Shown: piece by piece, positions 962-20,643 of the stretch
Position numbering within the stretch: position 1 is the first letter of the stretch
Layout of the letters: each line of letters starts with the position of its first letter
Virus record (IMG/VR): IMGVR_UViG_3300031999_000217
Location: 1 to 22,155 of that record
Origin: a virus
DNA length: 22,155 nt
Reading direction: 5' to 3' (one strand)
Translations under genes and position numbers: made by a program
The notes under the pieces: generated by a model
The model's input: only the letters and a program-made list of their open reading frames with translations
The model's database searches: none
Told to the model about the DNA's origin: nothing

Positions 962-2200
962 GTGGCAGTCAATCTGCACTGTAACCACTTCCGGTTCGGG
1001 AAAAACGAACTCGCCGAGAATACGCACGGCTGGTATGCGGCCGAGGACGTTAGCCCAAGCCATACGTGGGGATTTGCGTCCTTCTTTTTGCTCCGGCTCA
1101 ACGAGCAGGAAACCGGCGGGACGGCCGCGGCCGACACCGACGCGACCTTCCAGTACCAGAAGAATGGCGGAACATGGACCGCTATTACAACAACGTCCGC
1201 CAATGTCAAGGCGGTTAATGGTGTACTGACCAACGGCGGCAACTGCACAAAGCGCCTATCGGGGACAGGGACATTTGAAACAACCGGGGCGGGCCAGACG
1301 GAGGATGGAACATCGGGCGGGTCAGCAAATGACATAGCCATCAACGGGTGCAGCGAGACTGAGTGCGCGCTTCAATTCGTTGAAGCGGACTTGGCGAACG
1401 GCGACATAATCAACTTCCGCATAATCTCGCCCGACTGGACCGTTACGATGGACGTAGCTCCGACTATTTCCGTCGTCAAGTCTGTTACTCCCGGAGTTTC
1501 CGCGGCCGTCTTGGTGTCTTACGCGCCGACTGTTGCGCTGTCGAACAACAAACTCATAACGCCGCCCGTCTCCGACGCGGTTCTAGTAGCATACGCGTTG
1601 ACGGTTGCGGTATCCGATAACAAAGTCGTCACGCCCAGCGTGGCGACCGCGAACCTTACCAGTTTCATACCTGCCGTTGTCCTTGGAACCGTGGTTACAC
1701 CGGGGCTGACGGCCACAGAGTTGGCGGCCTACGAACCGACGGTTAGCGTCAGTTACGGAACAGTCATAACTCCGAGTGGGTCGGAAGTCACGCTTGTTGC
1801 CTACGCACCCTCCATTGCCGCGAGTGACAATATCGTTGTCGCGGTTGGGTTGGCTGAGGCGGAACTGTACTCGTTCTATCCGACAGTAACCGCAACCGAG
1901 GGACTATGTATCACCCCGTCCCCCTCAACCGCAACGCTCGTGTCCTTTGCGCCGACGGCGACGAGGACCTATACCATTGTCAGGATTGCGAAGGACCGAT
2001 ACGGGCCACTCGCTGGCGCAGAAGTGTACCTGTTTGACACAGACACAAAGACGCTTCAGGCGACAACCACTACCGGTTCGGATGGGATATTCCGGTTCCC
2101 CGGCCACTGTGCGGGACAACAGCACTTCGCGGTTCTCTTCTCTGGAACAAGTCCGAGAAGGGCGGGCGTAACACCCGATACCGTGGTGGGGACCGAATGA
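962..2200 (+). CDS. Repeat-bearing fibre/decoration-like virion protein (412 aa)
   Basis: Begins at GTG 962 (MAVNLHCNHFRFGKNELAENTH) and has three parts. Residues about 1-170 form a Thr/Ala/Asn-rich beta-type domain. Residues about 174-340 are seven tandem units of about 24 residues, with consensus (V/I)TP-x2-S-x-A-x-L-x-S-(Y/F)-x-PTV. Residues about 336-412 begin IVRIAKDRYGPLAGAEVYLFD and continue TTTGSDGIFRF, which looks like a carboxypeptidase-regulatory-like beta-sandwich domain, often used as a surface-adhesion module. The layout suggests a fibre or head decoration that binds host or environmental surfaces; this is inference. No chaperone or peptidase motif was seen. Its stop overlaps the next gene by ATGA. 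Confidence 0.75.
   Translation: MAVNLHCNHFRFGKNELAENTHGWYAAEDVSPSHTWGFASFFLLRLNEQETGGTAAADTDATFQYQKNGGTWTAITTTSANVKAVNGVLTNGGNCTKRLSGTGTFETTGAGQTEDGTSGGSANDIAINGCSETECALQFVEADLANGDIINFRIISPDWTVTMDVAPTISVVKSVTPGVSAAVLVSYAPTVALSNNKLITPPVSDAVLVAYALTVAVSDNKVVTPSVATANLTSFIPAVVLGTVVTPGLTATELAAYEPTVSVSYGTVITPSGSEVTLVAYAPSIAASDNIVVAVGLAEAELYSFYPTVTATEGLCITPSPSTATLVSFAPTATRTYTIVRIAKDRYGPLAGAEVYLFDTDTKTLQATTTTGSDGIFRFPGHCAGQQHFAVLFSGTSPRRAGVTPDTVVGTE
1484..1981 (+). repeat. Seven tandem 24-residue (72-bp) repeats inside the fibre-like gene
   Basis: The V or I before each TP motif is encoded at 1484, 1556, 1628, 1694, 1766, 1838 and 1910. The spacing is exactly 72 bp except for one 66-bp step, where two residues are missing in unit 3. 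The sixth unit has AV in place of TP. The DNA of the units has diverged clearly while the protein pattern is kept, which suggests selection on the fold rather than recent slippage. The end given is approximate, one unit length after the last TP. Confidence 0.85.
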
Positions 2201-2745
2201 TCGAGGAGGTCTTTCTTTTCGAGGCGGACCCATTCGTTGTAATTCTCATTGCTCTGGGCGAGTTCTCCCCCGAGGTCCCACACGGGGGACGCGGCAAGCG
2301 TAGACCATCGGTATACCACGTCCCGTTCCATCCTCGGGAAGACGACATCGAGGAACAACTGGAGCGCGCCGCACACGAGGCGATGCTCCAGCAACTCACA
2401 GAAGCGAGGGGGGTTGCCAGGGCCAACAGGGAATATGAGAAACGCGGGGAGGATGCCAGGGCACTGTCTCTGTTGAGCGCCCAACGAAGTAGGGCCATAG
2501 GAAGCGACCCGTTACACAGACCACTTCCCGTTACGGCGGCAAGTCTCCAGAAACATCTGAGGCAAGAGCGGGAGAGGCCAAGTGTCCTGCCAAAGAACAT
2601 GCAGGATGAATTGCTTCACATGAAGCGCGACGCGGCACTACAGGAGGCGAACCGCGTTCGCGAAGAGAAGAAGAAGCGCGAGGAGGAGATACGACAGAAA
2701 CGGTTGCAGAACTTGGCGAAGGCACGAAAAGCTCGCCGCCGCTAG
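2197..2745 (+). CDS. Basic coiled-coil protein upstream of terminase (182 aa; possible small-terminase position)
   Basis: ATG 2197 overlaps the fibre gene stop as ATGA. The N-terminus has a short hydrophobic stretch (VFLFEADPFVVILIALGEF), too polar to call a membrane helix. From residue about 50 the protein is charged and helical. It ends in a long Lys/Arg/Glu coiled coil (QEANRVREEKKKREEEIRQKR) and a basic tail KARKARRR. Sitting directly before TerL, it holds the place where small terminase subunits usually lie, but no helix-turn-helix is obvious, so that role is only positional. Its last 136 nt overlap an open frame in phase with TerL, which itself lacks a normal start; a -1 frameshift joining the two is possible. 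Confidence 0.7.
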   Translation: MIEEVFLFEADPFVVILIALGEFSPEVPHGGRGKRRPSVYHVPFHPREDDIEEQLERAAHEAMLQQLTEARGVARANREYEKRGEDARALSLLSAQRSRAIGSDPLHRPLPVTAASLQKHLRQERERPSVLPKNMQDELLHMKRDAALQEANRVREEKKKREEEIRQKRLQNLAKARKARRR

Positions 2746-2750
2746 AGTTC

Positions 2751-4343
2751 CTGCGCAAGTTTAGGACTGAGGCCATCGCCGGCGGTGTATCGAGTAATAC
2801 GCTGGAGGAGGCTTGTGCCATCGTCCGGTCGGACACTCCGGATGGATTCCGCCTATTCTATGAGCTTATCCGTAATCGTCCCCTCCCGGATCACTGTTGC
2901 GAGTGGATTGAAAGACTCTACCGCGCCCATTCTGCCGGGGAGTTCTTTGGCATCGAGGCTTTCCGGGGGTCTACTAAGACAACGACGATCACGGAGACCT
3001 TCACTGCCTATAGGATTGGACTGGAGCCGGAGAAATCCCACCTCTTCATTCAGGCGGACGAGGGACAGGCGAACAAACACGCCGCAAACGTCGCGAACAT
3101 TATCTCAAACAACGCGATGTGGCGGGAGGTCCTCTTTCCAAACGTGGTACCGGACACAACTTGGGGGGCGATGGGTTACTGGGTAATAGACGAGAACCGC
3201 AAGACCGACTGGGCACGTCTGAGACACAAAGACCCGACACTGGTGGGGGCCGGTTATACATCGGCTATCATTACCGGCTCCCACCCAAACGGGGGACTTG
3301 CCATTGACGACATCAACAACGACAAGAACTCCGAGTCGGATAGAGAGAACGAACGCGTCAATCGGGTTCTTACGGAGACCGTATATCCCGGAATAGAAGA
3401 CCCCGATGTGTGGCATACCTTTGCTCAGACACCGTGGACCACCCGAGATGCACTGAGTGTAGCAAAGGCAACGGGGGTTTACCAGTGGTGTCGGACTCCC
3501 GTTCTAACACCGTGTTCGGAGGACGAACCCGGAGCGGAGTGGGTTGAGGTAAAGAACGACGTAAGGCAGGTGGTTTATGGGGTCTGGGCGCGTCTGACCT
3601 GGCCGGAAAAGTTCGGCGTCCGCGAGATACGGAAGTGCTACAAGACCTCCCTCCGAAGGGGGTTTGCGCGGATGTATTTGCTAGACCTCTCGCAGGCCGA
3701 GGGGGTTAATCTTCGAAGGGAATGGTTGCACAGTTTCCCGGCGGAGAAACTAAACGAGAGTTGGCCCGTCTACATGGGTATCGACTACGCCTCAAGTGCG
3801 GGAGACCTGAGATACAGGGATCGGGACTACTGTTCCATCAGCATCGGGAAAGCGATGCCCACCGGCGGAGTTGTCCTGGTGGACGGTTTCCGCGACAGAC
3901 TCCCAAGAGCAGAGGCGGTACTGAAGGTCCGAGCTATTGCGGGGATGTATCCGACGCTCGTAAGTATCGGAGTAGAGGCAGAGGGGACCGGAATCGAGTT
4001 CTACAACGACTTGGCGCTTACTACGACCCTGCCGGTTCTGCCGATGAGGACCAAGGGCAGAAGCAAGGGCACTCGATTCGAGGACATCATGGCCCCTCGC
4101 TTCGAGATGTCCCAGGCGTGGATTTCGGATGTTAGGACACCATTCGTAACCAAGTTCATCGACGAGTGGTGTGGGTGGCCGGATAGCGACCACGACGACA
4201 CGCTGGACTCGACCTACTACATGCTCGCCGTTTCTGGGATGTTCCTGAAGGACCTGGAACAATCCGACGATATACCGGACCCGTGGTGGCAACCAAAGAA
4301 GAAACGCCTAGACTGGTCGGGAATGAGGGAGCGAAGTGGATAA
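2751..4343 (+). CDS. terL: Terminase large subunit (ATPase and nuclease); start uncertain
   Basis: The DNA-packaging motor: it cuts concatemers and pumps DNA through the portal. Counting from CTG 2751 (530 aa), the motifs run in the usual order: P-loop FRGSTKTT (about 71-78), Walker B LAIDDI (Asp186/187), coupling-type motif TPWTTRD (from 227), then an RNase H-like nuclease with acidic residues in GIDYA (Asp345), VEAEG (Glu409/411) and HDDTLD (Asp482/483). The length is normal. The frame is open from 2610, but no ATG, GTG or TTG occurs in phase until 3117, which is after the P-loop. Candidate starts are CTG 2751 or ATC 2820 (8 nt after GGAGGAGG), or a -1 frameshift from the upstream gene. The portal gene overlaps its end by 8 nt. 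Confidence 0.93.
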   Translation: MRKFRTEAIAGGVSSNTLEEACAIVRSDTPDGFRLFYELIRNRPLPDHCCEWIERLYRAHSAGEFFGIEAFRGSTKTTTITETFTAYRIGLEPEKSHLFIQADEGQANKHAANVANIISNNAMWREVLFPNVVPDTTWGAMGYWVIDENRKTDWARLRHKDPTLVGAGYTSAIITGSHPNGGLAIDDINNDKNSESDRENERVNRVLTETVYPGIEDPDVWHTFAQTPWTTRDALSVAKATGVYQWCRTPVLTPCSEDEPGAEWVEVKNDVRQVVYGVWARLTWPEKFGVREIRKCYKTSLRRGFARMYLLDLSQAEGVNLRREWLHSFPAEKLNESWPVYMGIDYASSAGDLRYRDRDYCSISIGKAMPTGGVVLVDGFRDRLPRAEAVLKVRAIAGMYPTLVSIGVEAEGTGIEFYNDLALTTTLPVLPMRTKGRSKGTRFEDIMAPRFEMSQAWISDVRTPFVTKFIDEWCGWPDSDHDDTLDSTYYMLAVSGMFLKDLEQSDDIPDPWWQPKKKRLDWSGMRERSG

Positions 4344-13010: not shown

Positions 13011-13730
13011 ATGACCGAGAAGGCGCAGGACGCCCTTCCGGTGGTCGAGCAGGACGCCGTGGGAAAGCCAATTCCACAGGTTTCTGGCGGATCAGCGGAT
13101 GCGGGTTCGGCAACAACCGGCCCAGACGTGAGTGCTCTTGATAAAAGGCTTGCGGGAATTGAGGAGAAACTGTCTACGCTGGACAGGATTGACGACAAGA
13201 TCGACGCTCGTTTCAAGTCCAGCACAGACAAGCGGTTCCAGAATCTCCAGCAATTCAAGGATGCTCTGGACGAGGCGAAGGGGGACGTGAAACTCGCCGC
13301 GCGCAACATGCTCCTCGACGAGATGCTGGAGGAACGAAAAGCCTCCCCCGCACCTAGTTCCGGTGGGGATCGTGGCAGGTCGCCCGCCGCGAACGACGAG
13401 AGTCTAACCGCGAAGTTCCTGAATGAACTCAAAGACGAGTCCGGCGTAGAACTCACCGACGAAGAGTTGCACAGGGTTTGGGATGGCAAACGCTATACCG
13501 CCTTGGACGACGCCTTCAAGGACGCCAAGAAGGCCGCATGGAAGAAGGCCAAGGGCGAGAGCATCGGACTCGGCGCGGCCGCGACTGGTGGCGGAAAGCA
13601 AGTCACACAGTCGGATACCGACGATGAGCTTCTGGAGCAGTACGAGAAGGCTTCGAAGCAACCCGTCGGCAAGGCCGAGGAACTAAAGAGACTTCGAGAG
13701 GAGGCAAAGAAACGCGGCCTCCTGAAATGA
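13011..13730 (+). CDS. Capsid scaffold protein (239 aa)
   Basis: Expected to guide assembly of capsid protein into the procapsid and then leave. It lies directly before the capsid gene, starts at ATG 13011 after a perfect AGGAGG, and shows scaffold traits: a disordered acidic N-terminus, a coiled coil at about 40-75 (LDKRLAGIEEKLSTLDRIDDK), a charged helical stretch (QQFKDALDEAKGDVKLAARN), a Pro/Ser/Gly linker near 110-130, a second helical part (DESGVELTDEELHRVWDGKRYTALDD), and a basic C-terminal helix (EELKRLREEAKKRGLLK) of the kind that binds capsid subunits. Sequence motifs are weak, so position and composition carry the call. Confidence 0.82.
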   Translation: MTEKAQDALPVVEQDAVGKPIPQVSGGSADAGSATTGPDVSALDKRLAGIEEKLSTLDRIDDKIDARFKSSTDKRFQNLQQFKDALDEAKGDVKLAARNMLLDEMLEERKASPAPSSGGDRGRSPAANDESLTAKFLNELKDESGVELTDEELHRVWDGKRYTALDDAFKDAKKAAWKKAKGESIGLGAAATGGGKQVTQSDTDDELLEQYEKASKQPVGKAEELKRLREEAKKRGLLK

Positions 13731-13745
13731 ACATAGGAGTTTGAA

Positions 13746-14984
13746 ATGACTGTCACGCAGAGTTCGACTCTGTCGAATAGCCTGCGCATCCAGTACTTGA
13801 ATGACTATCAGCAAGGCGCTATGCGGCGTCGGTTCTACGACATCGTGGCCTCGCCTATCGACGGCCTTTCGGCTGCCGCGGGTCAGGCACAGGCGATGGC
13901 CGACCTGTCCAAGGGCGGAACTGTTCGGATTCCTTTCCTCAGCGACATGAACGTAACCACAACCCCGCTGAGTGAGATTTCGGACATTCTTCCCCAGACA
14001 CTCGCAGACGCGACCGCTGATGTCACCGTTGATATGTTCGGTGATGGCATCCAGACATCTCAAAAGGCGCTGATCGAATACTACACCAACTACGGGTCTA
14101 GTTCACCGGCGAAGGTCGGGTTGAATATGATGGACCTCGTGGACTTCAAGGCTGGTGAGGCTGCGCTGAATGGGTCTCTGGTATACCGATATGTCGGACG
14201 GGCAACTCTGGCTGCGGCTACTTCGGCACACTATGCTTCGGACGGCGTTTTTGCGAACGTCGCGGCTCGTCTGAGCAGTTTCTCGTGTCCAGGATGGGAA
14301 GGCGAAGGAAAGCCGACCTCCTGGGTGGCTCTGATGGACCACTTCGTTCTCAATGACATCGCTCGCGGCACCAACGGGACCATTGTCCTCAATGTCGCAC
14401 AGTACCAGGACAAGGAAATGGTTCTGAACAACGAAGTGGGACGACTCCATTCGTTCCGCATCGTTGCTAGTGGTTTCGCCAAGACGTTCTACGGCGCGGG
14501 GCTTGCAGACACGGGTGGCCACACGGTCACCACGACTTTAACTGTTGCCGCCGCAAGATTGGCGAAGACCCTTACGTTGACCTACGGCAACCTTCACGCA
14601 GACGAGTGGCTCAATATCGGCACCGTCGAAACTGGCAGCACCTTCTACCCGAATAACGAACGGGTAAAGGTGGCATCGGTTTCCGGGTCAACGGTCGTCG
14701 TCATTGTTGGCGAAGGACCGAATGGCGGATTGCGGTTCTCACATGCAGCCGGGGAAGCGATCAGTGACAGGGTTAGTGTTCACACTATCCTGTTCGGCGG
14801 ACCGCAGTCCATAGTGAAGGTGTGGGCACCAGACATCGGGGAGTTCGGAGAACTGGTTGGGCCAAAGAAACAGGGTTTGGCAGATCAGTGGACTTCCTTC
14901 GCCTGGAAGTGGTTCGGCGGATACGGTCGAATCAGCGAGAACTGGCTCTACCGCGGCGAGTTCGCCGTAAGCGAGGAGGCGTAA
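13746..14984 (+). CDS. Major capsid protein, N4 gp56-like, HK97-type fold (412 aa)
   Basis: Forms the icosahedral shell. The order scaffold-capsid and the sequence support this. The N-terminal half has MADLSKGGTVRIPFLSDM followed by TPLSEISDILPQTL. The middle has WVALMDHFVLNDIARG and NNEVGRLHSFRIVASGFAKT (about 228-247), close to the EVG-GFRIV signature I associate with N4 gp56-type capsid proteins. The end has QSIVKVWAPDIGEFGELVG and WKWFGGYGRISENWLYRGEF. Residues about 250-350 are Thr/Val-rich and look like an inserted or variable beta region. TAGGAG precedes the ATG by 6 nt. The HK97-type fold is inferred from the family, not visible directly. Confidence 0.88.
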   Translation: MTVTQSSTLSNSLRIQYLNDYQQGAMRRRFYDIVASPIDGLSAAAGQAQAMADLSKGGTVRIPFLSDMNVTTTPLSEISDILPQTLADATADVTVDMFGDGIQTSQKALIEYYTNYGSSSPAKVGLNMMDLVDFKAGEAALNGSLVYRYVGRATLAAATSAHYASDGVFANVAARLSSFSCPGWEGEGKPTSWVALMDHFVLNDIARGTNGTIVLNVAQYQDKEMVLNNEVGRLHSFRIVASGFAKTFYGAGLADTGGHTVTTTLTVAAARLAKTLTLTYGNLHADEWLNIGTVETGSTFYPNNERVKVASVSGSTVVVIVGEGPNGGLRFSHAAGEAISDRVSVHTILFGGPQSIVKVWAPDIGEFGELVGPKKQGLADQWTSFAWKWFGGYGRISENWLYRGEFAVSEEA

Positions 14985-16902: not shown

Positions 16903-18300
16903 GTGTCCCTTAGTTGTATGTGGCATTCCGCGCCGGCCTATTATCCGACCGGCTACGGCGTCCAGACCGCGGGGTTCGTGACACGTATGATCGACGACGG
17001 CCACGAGGTTGTCGTGCTGACCACAACTCAGCAACCCGGCATAACGTGGAATGGTATCACTCACGTTCCGGGAGGGAACGCCAAATACGGAGCAGACGGT
17101 CTATTGGAGTGGCCGAAGCGGGTCAAGACAGATATCATGCTCACCCTCTTTGACATCTGGATATTCCCAGAGGACATCGGCAAGAAGATAGCGGCGTTAG
17201 GCACGGCATGGGCGCCAATCTGTCCCATAGACCACGACCCCATCCCGCCGACTATCTTAGAGAGACTCAAGGGGGCGCAGTATCCCATCGCAATGAGTCC
17301 TCATGGCTTCCGGGAGATGCAACGGGTTGGGATAACGAATGCAACCTACATCCCGCACGGTGTCGATACCCAAGTATTTAGGCCGCGCCAGCCGGACAAG
17401 GGACTATTCAGGGTCAACAACGAGACTTTTGTTGTCGGCATTATTGCTACAAACATGGAGCCACTGGATCGCAAGGGTTGGTATCCGACACTTGCCGCAT
17501 TCGGGAAGTTCCACGCCAAACACCCAGACAGTATCTTGTATGTCCACGCCACGGCGGGAAGGGAAGATGGCGGATACGACCTGATGCGAATAGCGGAGTC
17601 GTTCAACTTCAAACTTCACGTCCCCGACCCATGGACGTTGACTGCGGGAATTCCGGTGCTAAAGATGGTTGAGTTGTACAACTCGATGGACGTGATGTTG
17701 CTCCTTACCAGGGGCGAGGGATTCTGCGTCCCGCTGATTGAGGCGCAAGCCTGTGGCACCCCGGTCATAACGACCGACTTCACTGCTCCAGCAGACTTGG
17801 TAGGGGCGGGCTGGAAGATTCCGATTACTGGCACCCGATACACACTGATGAACTCCTTTTGGGCAGAGCCGGATATTGACGCAGGTACAAGAGCGCTCGA
17901 ACAGTGTTACCAACTCTGGCGCGCCGGCGAACTGCGCGAGGAGATGCAGCAGAAGGCGCGCAACTTCGCCAAGACGTTTGACTTCGACCTAGTGTACAAG
18001 ACCTATATGCGGCCATTCTTGGAGAAAGCCGAAGCGGAGATACGGGAGAAACAGAATGCGGCGAAAACGGGTGATGACGGAGTACGGCAAGCGACCTCCC
18101 CCGAACAAGGGCGAGGAGTTCATAATCGTCAACAGCGGGCATCAAAAGGTAACGGACGTGGAGGTGGGGGGAACGGCCATTCATCTTCTAAGCGCCGGCG
18201 CCACCGTATACGACCGGGCGCTGGCAATGGAAGTAAAGGACAAGTACAAGTGGGACCCGAATGTGAAGGTGATAGAGAAACCGTACCTGTCACTCAATGA
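16903..18300 (+). CDS. GT4-type glycosyltransferase, GT-B fold (465 aa)
   Basis: Transfers a sugar from a nucleotide-sugar to an unknown acceptor. GTG 16903 is chosen because GAGGT lies 6 nt upstream; ATG 16918 is an alternative. The start has the Gly-rich donor/acceptor loop region APAYYPTGYGVQTAGF. The C-terminal Rossmann half has FVVGIIATNMEPLDRKGW and the EX7E motif EGFCVPLIE (Glu272, Glu280), followed by AQACGTPVITTDFTAP, typical of GT4. The core probably ends near residue 390. The remaining tail is Gly/Ser/Arg-rich and overlaps another, better-looking reading frame by 245 nt, so it may be unselected read-through or a frame error. Acceptor candidates are a capsid/tail protein or host glycan. 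Confidence 0.87.
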   Translation: MSLSCMWHSAPAYYPTGYGVQTAGFVTRMIDDGHEVVVLTTTQQPGITWNGITHVPGGNAKYGADGLLEWPKRVKTDIMLTLFDIWIFPEDIGKKIAALGTAWAPICPIDHDPIPPTILERLKGAQYPIAMSPHGFREMQRVGITNATYIPHGVDTQVFRPRQPDKGLFRVNNETFVVGIIATNMEPLDRKGWYPTLAAFGKFHAKHPDSILYVHATAGREDGGYDLMRIAESFNFKLHVPDPWTLTAGIPVLKMVELYNSMDVMLLLTRGEGFCVPLIEAQACGTPVITTDFTAPADLVGAGWKIPITGTRYTLMNSFWAEPDIDAGTRALEQCYQLWRAGELREEMQQKARNFAKTFDFDLVYKTYMRPFLEKAEAEIREKQNAAKTGDDGVRQATSPEQGRGVHNRQQRASKGNGRGGGGNGHSSSKRRRHRIRPGAGNGSKGQVQVGPECEGDRETVPVTQ

Positions 18301-18481
18301 CGGGCACAGAAGCAGTTTCGTCGTCCCGGAACTGCCCTGGAAGCGGGAGGTGAAAGATGGCGAAGAAGAGCATGAAACCGGGGGGCGGGGGACGGTTCGC
18401 CAAGATGAAGGCCAAGCTGAAGGGGAAGGTCCGCAAACCCGCCGCAGTAGCGGCCGCGATTGGCCGCAAGAAGTACGGTAA
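18056..18481 (+). CDS. Unknown conserved-looking protein, overlaps both neighbours (141 aa)
   Basis: ATG 18056 follows GGGAG by 7 nt; a second ATG at 18074 is possible. The first 100 residues look like real protein: PPPNKGEEFIIVNSGHQ, VTDVEVGGTAIHLLSAGATV, ALAMEVKDKYKWDPNVKVIEKPYL, then SSFVVPELPW. It overlaps the glycosyltransferase tail (different frame) over 18056-18300 and the next basic protein over 18357-18481, where its own tail turns into Glu/Gly/Arg low complexity. So the functional part is probably about the first 105 residues. It reminds me of small beta-rich phage structural proteins, but no family name is safe. Confidence 0.6.
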   Translation: MRRKRVMTEYGKRPPPNKGEEFIIVNSGHQKVTDVEVGGTAIHLLSAGATVYDRALAMEVKDKYKWDPNVKVIEKPYLSLNDGHRSSFVVPELPWKREVKDGEEEHETGGRGTVRQDEGQAEGEGPQTRRSSGRDWPQEVR

Positions 18482-18548: not shown

Positions 18549-19136
18549 GTGACGGAGAGGACCTGGACCGTCTACGGACTGATTGATCCGCGTCAACCTC
18601 GGGATATCCGGTATGTCGGTATCACCATCGACCCGCGGCGGAGAGAGGGGGAACACCGTAGAGTACAGGATAAGGGGAATCGGCGTCTAGTGACATGGGA
18701 AAGTGCCGCTCGTGTCGATGCAATTAGTCTCCTCGCCCTTCCCTTAGAGGTCCATCGAACACTAGATTCGGCGCAGGACGGCGAACGGTGGTGGATTCGC
18801 GAGTTACGCGAAGACTACGGTTGTGATCTACTCAACCTAAACAACGGCGGAGCATGGAACTCAACAAAATGTGGCCCGAAGTCGGCGATAACTCGCGCGA
18901 GAATATCGGCAACACTCGCCAAGCACGTGGAAGATAGACGCGCGAAAATACTGCAAGGAGTACGGCGTCCAGCGGCGCGGGCTGCACATTTGGCGGCAAA
19001 TTGCTCCCCGGAGAAGCGGGCCAAGTTATCTGCCGCGCACCTTGGTAGGCCGAAGTCTCCCGAACATAGAGCCAAGATTTCGGTGGCACTCAAAGGGCGG
19101 GTACCCTGGAACAAGAGGGTGGAGGAGCGGTCGTGA
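18549..19136 (+). CDS. GIY-YIG homing endonuclease with NUMOD3-type repeats (195 aa)
   Basis: A free-standing mobile DNA endonuclease. GTG 18549 opens WTVYGLIDP (VYG in place of GIY at residues 8-10) and RYVGIT (YVG at 22-24), followed by basic RRREGEHRR, Glu79 in GERWWI, and Asn96 in LLNLNNGG; these match the usual active-site Tyr, Tyr, Arg, Glu and Asn. C-terminally it carries DNA-binding NUMOD3-like helices (TRARISATLAKH, SPEKRAKLSAAHLGRPKSP, SPEHRAKISVALKGR). It overlaps the next gene by GTGA and has GGAGGAG for that gene within its own end. Substrate site unknown; the most likely target is the gene or intergenic region it flanks. Confidence 0.9.
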   Translation: MTERTWTVYGLIDPRQPRDIRYVGITIDPRRREGEHRRVQDKGNRRLVTWESAARVDAISLLALPLEVHRTLDSAQDGERWWIRELREDYGCDLLNLNNGGAWNSTKCGPKSAITRARISATLAKHVEDRRAKILQGVRRPAARAAHLAANCSPEKRAKLSAAHLGRPKSPEHRAKISVALKGRVPWNKRVEERS

Positions 19137-20026
19137 CTTACACACTTAGTAATATGATGACCGACATGTACATGTCCTTGGGGCAACTCAACGTATCTAC
19201 GGTCACTGGCGGCAGCACCACCGCACTTGCCGATACCAAGCAAGCGACCCTCCACGGGGACGATTCCTGGAAGAACGGCGCGGTCATCGTCATTCGAGAC
19301 GGGACAACTGCCGGCGCTGCGCCAGAGGGCGAGTTCTCCCTGTGTACTGCCTACACCGACAGTACGGGGAGTTTCGCCACAGTCTGGACTGCCGCACCTG
19401 CCGCGACAGATACCTATGCCTTCGTAAACGACTTCTACCCCCTGTACCCGATGATCGAAGTCTGCAACATGGCGTTGCAGGAACTTGGCGACATCATCCT
19501 GGTGGACACCTCTCTCACCACGGCGGCCAATCAGACGGAGTACGCACTTCCCGTAACCTGCAAGGGGTCGCGGCCTCTCTCCGTCGCCATCCAAGGCGTT
19601 ACGACTGACGCAAATGATAATCGGTACACTACGGTATTCGGCTGGGACTACATTCCCGCCGCGCCCGGAAGTACCGGCAACCTCGTCTTTGATGTCCAGC
19701 CCATCACGGGTAAGTCAATCAAGATCGTCTACTCGGGCAGACATCCCAAACTAAGCATCTACAGCAGCGTCGTCTCAGAGACCATCCATCCCTCGCTTGC
19801 CGCAGCCGCGGCTACGGAGATGGCGTTGCGGTGGCAGAACTCGCGACTTCAGGGCGGGGACGACTTCCTGCTCCAGAGATGGAACGACGCCAAGCAAAGT
19901 CTAGTTACTGCTAAGGCATTGTTCCCTGTGTGGAAGCCGAAGAGACAGGCGAAGTTGCTGATTATTAACTCGTCCTATTGGGACGCCGACAGTATTGCCG
20001 CTCCGGCCCCTGGAACCCGAACATGA
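19133..20026 (+). CDS. Head-tail connector-like structural protein (297 aa)
   Basis: Starts at GTG 19133, overlapping the endonuclease stop as GTGA, after GGAGGAG with 5-nt spacing. It matches a structural family I know in tailed phages: an N-terminal LSNMMTDMYMSLGQLNVSTV, then TGGSTTALADTKQ, a Thr/Ala/Ser-rich middle, the motif NMALQELGDIILVDTSLTT, QTEYALPVTCKGSRP, and IHPSLAAAAATEMALRWQN, ending KAKQ-like basic helices. No enzyme motif is seen. It stands between capsid genes and a tail-like gene, so neck or connector is the best guess; a different virion role cannot be excluded. Confidence 0.72.
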   Translation: MTYTLSNMMTDMYMSLGQLNVSTVTGGSTTALADTKQATLHGDDSWKNGAVIVIRDGTTAGAAPEGEFSLCTAYTDSTGSFATVWTAAPAATDTYAFVNDFYPLYPMIEVCNMALQELGDIILVDTSLTTAANQTEYALPVTCKGSRPLSVAIQGVTTDANDNRYTTVFGWDYIPAAPGSTGNLVFDVQPITGKSIKIVYSGRHPKLSIYSSVVSETIHPSLAAAAATEMALRWQNSRLQGGDDFLLQRWNDAKQSLVTAKALFPVWKPKRQAKLLIINSSYWDADSIAAPAPGTRT

Positions 20027-20643
20027 CAAGCTCCGGTGTCTACCTCATCGAGAACAGCAATAACGGGAAGAGATACATTGGCTCTTCCGTGAACATGCCT
20101 GGCCGTTTCTTGGACCACAAGAAGTTGCTACGCAGAGGAAGACACCACAGCCCCCATCTCCAGGCATCCTGGAACAAATATGGCGAAGGGGCATTTCGGT
20201 TCGAAGTTCTAGAGGAATGGGAACCCGAGTTCTGTGTCAGCATGGAACAGTGGTGGATTAACATGCTTCGGCCAGAGTACAACCACCGCTCCGTGGCCCA
20301 GGCCAACTTGGGGGTTATCCCGAGTGAGGAAACGAGGGCGCGCATCAGCAATTCTAAGAGGGGGAAATCACAGACGCCGGAGCACATCGCCAAGAGAGTG
20401 GCCGCGAACACGGGCAAGAAACGCTCGCTAGAAAGTAGGGCCGCCATCTCGGCCGCCCTGAAGGGCCGGAAGAATGGGCCTATGCCACAAGAGCAACGGG
20501 ACAAGATTGGCGCGGCATTGAGAAAGCCCTGGTCCGCGACCCGCCGCCGGGCCGGTAATCCATCGGGCTGGCACCACACGCCCGAGGCGCGGCAGAAGAT
20601 TTCGGCCGCTAGGCGGAAGTGTCTCGGGGAGGCGCGGCCGTGA
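20023..20643 (+). CDS. GIY-YIG homing endonuclease with five NUMOD3-like repeats (206 aa)
   Basis: ATG 20023 overlaps the connector-like gene as ATGA; the longer in-phase frame from 19978 is inside that gene. The motifs are textbook: GVYLI (5-9), KRYIGSSV (16-23), Arg28 of MPGRF, Glu75 of MEQWWI, and Asn87 of PEYNHRS. C-terminal repeats for DNA binding: SEETRARISNSKRGK, TPEHIAKRVAANTGKK, LESRAAISAALKGRK, QEQRDKIGAALRKP and TPEARQKISAARRK. It belongs to the T4 Seg-like class of free-standing endonucleases. It is not close in sequence to the endonuclease at 18549, so two separate acquisitions are likely. The next gene's GTG overlaps its stop. Confidence 0.92.
   Translation: MTSSGVYLIENSNNGKRYIGSSVNMPGRFLDHKKLLRRGRHHSPHLQASWNKYGEGAFRFEVLEEWEPEFCVSMEQWWINMLRPEYNHRSVAQANLGVIPSEETRARISNSKRGKSQTPEHIAKRVAANTGKKRSLESRAAISAALKGRKNGPMPQEQRDKIGAALRKPWSATRRRAGNPSGWHHTPEARQKISAARRKCLGEARP

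Follow-up and report, generated by a model that had tools for sequence, protein, structure and literature searches.

A large terminase frame lacking a canonical start codon in an uncultured phage, and its possible near-cognate start

The terminase locus and the remainder of the window

The sequence studied, referred to below as the window, is a stretch of 22,155 bases from the IMG/VR virus record IMGVR_UViG_3300031999_000217, which belongs to an uncultured phage. The features of its terminase locus are listed in Table 1. The gene for the large terminase, TerL, is preceded by a gene whose product carries a basic coiled-coil C-terminus. The two share 136 nt, and the TerL frame lies at -1 relative to the upstream gene. 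The TerL frame is open for 577 codons after a stop at 2607–2609, and its first in-frame ATG, GTG or TTG is the ATG at 3117, downstream of the P-loop. The absence of a canonical start before this position had been pointed out in a sequence-only reading of the window, and it is borne out. The coordinates given there for the preceding stop (2607–2609), the P-loop (about 2961), the 136-nt shared stretch, the TAG at 2743 and the tetramer A_AAA (2727–2730) are correct, and the non-AUG candidates that it named, CTG 2751 and ATC 2820 with GGAGGAGG (2804–2811) in front of an 8-nt spacer, are all present as described. A further in-frame near-cognate codon, absent from that list, is ATC 2775, which lies downstream of AGGA.

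Table 1. Features of the terminase locus (positions in the window)
Feature	Position	Strand	Basis or remark
Upstream gene, 182 aa, C-terminus basic coiled-coil	2197–2745	+	ATG 2197 to TAG 2743–2745
TerL open reading frame	2610–4343	+	phrog_38 E 3e-50; ATG/GTG/TTG absent before 3117
A_AAA, sole homopolymeric slip tetramer in the overlap	2727–2730	+	overlap scan
Interval for the TerL translation start	2742–2790 (approx.)	+	homologue N-termini, model helix 2793–2828, codon usage
Candidate start CTG	2751–2753	+	5 nt past the upstream TAG; 27 residues before the conserved D
Favoured candidate start ATC	2775–2777	+	AGGA 2763–2766, 8-nt spacer; 19 residues before the conserved D
GGAGGAGG plus ATC 2820	2804–2822	+	strong Shine-Dalgarno match, within the conserved first helix
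TerL P-loop FRGSTKTT	2961–2984	+	frame reading and homologue alignment

Besides phrog_38, which is matched by all 25 members of the TerL homologue alignment, the product of the TerL frame matches the profile phrog_4758 (E 3e-10); the Pfam profile search of TerL gave no match. The motifs FRGSTKTT, AIDDIN, GIDYA and HDDTLD align with the homologues and represent the Walker A and B motifs of the ATPase and the acidic residues of the nuclease. The AlphaFold2 model (mean pLDDT 87) displays a terminase fold. Its top Foldseek matches are the large terminases of PhiV-1 (E 8e-18), HK97 and T4, with whole-chain TM-scores of only 0.35–0.5. Judged from sequence and model, the gene looks intact apart from its start, with profile, fold, Walker and nuclease motifs retained. 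The terminase and the gene order are otherwise ordinary, and it is the single start that is unusual or erroneous.

Elsewhere in the window, two GIY-YIG/NUMOD3 genes (18549–19136 and 19978–20643) flank an adaptor-like gene (19133–20026). The relative L012 carries neither of them and is contiguous across both places, which suggests that they are homing-endonuclease insertions. In the relative L011 the capsid gene (631–2476) has, close to its 3′ end, an insert of about 613 nt (about 1801–2413) that holds an HNH-like open reading frame (1958–2482). An Rfam search of this insert yielded no family at threshold, and the insert is possibly an intron. The 3′ end of the window glycosyltransferase gene (16903–18300) overlaps the next open frame (17993–18481) by about 230–300 nt in another frame. 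A frame error in this gene near 18070 was considered and rejected, as L009, L010 and L012 all keep both of the overlapping frames. The scaffold-position protein (13011–13730) is 97–99% identical to those of L009–L011, and the adjoining capsid protein (13746–14984) only 80–82%; this change of identity is read as a sharp mosaic step.

Related terL records and the expected position of the start

Relatives were recovered via a capsid alignment, followed by searches with TerL alignments and with a degenerate pattern for the P-loop. Together these yielded 27 records of related TerL genes, drawn from IMG/VR and from GTDB genomes and including a few near-duplicates. Single-sequence scans of IMG/VR with TerL, the portal and the giant protein yielded no close relatives, and neither did two scans that used a portal alignment. 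The capsid alignment did find IMG/VR relatives, one of which, L018, carries terL on its record. The identity of TerL to that of the window is 33–48% among the aligned relatives. In the distant podovirus MW202608, counterparts of the window TerL (25%) and portal (37%) occur, as do those of the giant protein and the capsid.

In each of the 27 related records an ATG, GTG or TTG precedes the P-loop, and none uses a near-cognate terL start. This indicates that the missing start in the window is more than a matter of chance. ATG 3117, which falls after the P-loop, was therefore discounted as the start of TerL. The sequence-only reading had proposed homologue N-termini as a test of its observation; as they begin before the equivalent of 3117, the missing start was not refuted.

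The homologues in which the conserved D-x-P-x-G-F motif was placed automatically start 12–41 residues ahead of its D, many of them at 14–24. The ATG of the L018 terL aligns with window TerL residues 57–58 (2778–2781). An apparent tblastn extension of L040 to window position 2712 was discarded; it is ungapped, contains very few identities and is attributed to chance. The TerL model built from 2742 has a confident helix at residues 18–29 (2793–2828), which places the start before 2793, and a less certain helix at residues 2–12 (pLDDT about 69). Codon-usage scores, trained on the genes of the window itself, describe the TerL frame as non-coding in 2610–2742 (-11.5 bits over 44 codons) and as coding in 2746–2819 (+12.6 bits over 24 codons); in 2610–2742 they favour the frame of the upstream gene (+8.3 bits). 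The signal of the TerL frame in 2748–2774 is modest: a score this high is reached by 43% of in-frame windows, by 3.5% of windows that are off-frame or reverse, and by 7% of random sequence free of stops. Taken together, homologue N-termini, helix and codon usage bracket the start of TerL to about 2742–2790. This interval contains no canonical start; its near-cognate codons are CTG 2751 and ATC 2775.

Explanations for the missing start codon

We propose, as a tentative first choice, that TerL is translated separately from a near-cognate start used by ribosomes directly after termination at TAG 2743. It would be a functional protein of about 520–530 residues and not a fusion. The basic coiled-coil gene and the TerL frame behind it appear to form a compact operon, an arrangement also seen in several relatives. 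We infer that ribosomes, once they have terminated at TAG 2743, probably resume initiation a few codons further on, more likely at ATC 2775 (AUC) than at CTG 2751, and that such a start would give a low output of TerL; since few copies of a motor protein are needed, this is plausible. Separate initiation of terL in all 27 related records is consistent with this proposal, and so is the position of ATC 2775, whose distance from the conserved D falls inside the range of the homologues and which lies next to the place where the L018 ATG aligns. The stop of the upstream gene and the TerL start overlap by 4 nt in 10 of the 27 records, and several homologous terL starts show an overlap with the upstream stop and a weak Shine-Dalgarno match, a combination that suits coupling. 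Against ATC 2775 stands the modest coding signal in 2748–2774, which would favour an earlier start. Its Shine-Dalgarno duplex (-3.9 kcal/mol) is unexceptional, since 45% of the internal terL codons are equal or better, and upstream of CTG 2751 there is nothing that amounts to a Shine-Dalgarno match; the lack of a relative with a near-cognate start also speaks against the proposal. Starts at near-cognate codons are both weak and very rare: CUG accounts for 0.024% of bacterial starts and yields 0.86% of the output of AUG (PMC11497404). AUC is the start of infC in Streptomyces (PMC5472188). A more specific version, in which the TerL dose is set at few copies by obligatory AUC or CUG re-initiation coupled to the upstream stop and depends on the IF3 stringency of the host, is doubtful.

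An erroneous contig or a lost start is nearly as likely as a near-cognate start. The consensus may be wrong near the start through a miscall, an indel or a mixture of strains, or a mutation may have removed the start in this strain. Under this explanation the living phage population would, like all relatives, carry an ordinary start there. Errors turn up occasionally in metagenomic contigs, about as often as true near-cognate starts. The canonical starts of all 27 relatives fit this explanation, as does a GTG in another frame at 2785, which sits at the distance typical of the family. However, no frame break was found against the four closer relatives L009–L012 where they align within 13.1–22.1 kb, so the contig is not generally poor, and from 2746 on it is the TerL frame that scores best in codon usage. 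The family junction ATGA, GTGA or TTGA reads CTAG in the window and differs from each at three positions; a single miscall there would thus be insufficient. The missing start could be due to an indel or to a change at another place in the bracket. The searches of IMG/VR and GTDB that yielded TerL records found no close relative of the terL junction.

It is highly improbable that TerL begins at ATC 2820, driven by the Shine-Dalgarno sequence GGAGGAGG. The duplex of this sequence (-12.1 kcal/mol, with good spacing) is the best in the window and unequalled among the internal terL codons tested. A start at this codon would leave 4 residues ahead of the conserved D, where the homologues have at least 12, and would remove most of the confidently predicted helix 2793–2828, which resembles that of L041 (NTEELAQVARSDTP versus NTLEEACAIVRSDTP). 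Moreover, GGAGGAGG largely consists of two Glu codons, and Glu-Glu occurs at the same place in L041. ATC 2775 or CTG 2751 therefore fits better. Of the three options offered in the earlier reading, non-AUG initiation is thus the best supported, but not at ATC 2820, which would cost most of the conserved first helix.

The same reading had also suggested a fusion of the coiled-coil protein to TerL through -1 ribosomal frameshifting within the overlap, with A_AAA as one possible site. To this we assign very little probability. The TerL frame does lie at -1 and is open through the overlap, with A_AAA just ahead of the TAG, and the terminase of Streptomyces phage Hau3 has been suggested to involve translational bypassing (PMC5009743), the only case that paper searches on terminase frameshifting brought up. 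The relatives, however, make two proteins, as follows from the separate terL starts in 27 of 27 records, the 4-nt overlaps in ten and the arrangement of L074, where a stop separates the two genes although they share a frame. The frame relation, whose retention in related phages had been proposed as a check, is therefore not conserved. The C-terminal 42 residues of the upstream protein are 38% identical to the product of the gene before terL in L039 (BLASTP pair E 2e-5); the resemblance to the L046 counterpart is only suggestive (E 0.51). No X_XXY_YYZ slippery heptamer was found in the overlap. The predicted folding downstream is not significant in stability, with z -1.61 for 2731–2830 (14 of 200 shuffles as stable) and z -0.06 for 2735–2800, and an Rfam search of the window found nothing. 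Two proteins in the relatives, the absent heptamer and the non-significant folding together make a programmed fusion of TerL with the preceding gene unlikely. Transcriptional slippage needs runs longer than four A and was rejected, since the tract consists of four A only. The probabilities attached to the four readings above are judgements and were not computed.

Should the near-cognate start prove true, an essential viral motor gene would join the few genes that start at other than AUG, GUG or UUG, and gene callers limited to these codons would truncate the window terminase at 3117, with loss of the P-loop. Should the sequence be in error, the case would be a caution against over-reading a single metagenomic contig.

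Comparison with known systems

The terminase of Streptomyces phage Hau3 bears a possible likeness to the window TerL in that its expression may need non-standard decoding (PMC5009743). For Hau3 bypassing was proposed and linked to a UUA codon; there is no such evidence for the window TerL. A near-cognate start would place TerL beside infC, the gene of initiation factor 3, which starts with ATT in E. coli and ATC in Streptomyces (PMC5472188). The infC starts are experimentally shown and IF3-autoregulated, whereas that of TerL is putative. Among phages, MW202608 (Caudoviricetes sp. ctptF532), L018 and L039–L046 have TerL and portal in the same order as the window, and the order of giant protein and capsid is also the same where the records reach. 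Their TerL proteins are 25–48% identical to that of the window and, unlike it, all have canonical starts. The large terminases of PHROG 38, with structures from PhiV-1, HK97 and T4 (gp17), likewise differ from the window TerL in that the latter has no canonical start codon in its record; profile, fold, P-loop, Walker B and nuclease residues are shared with them.
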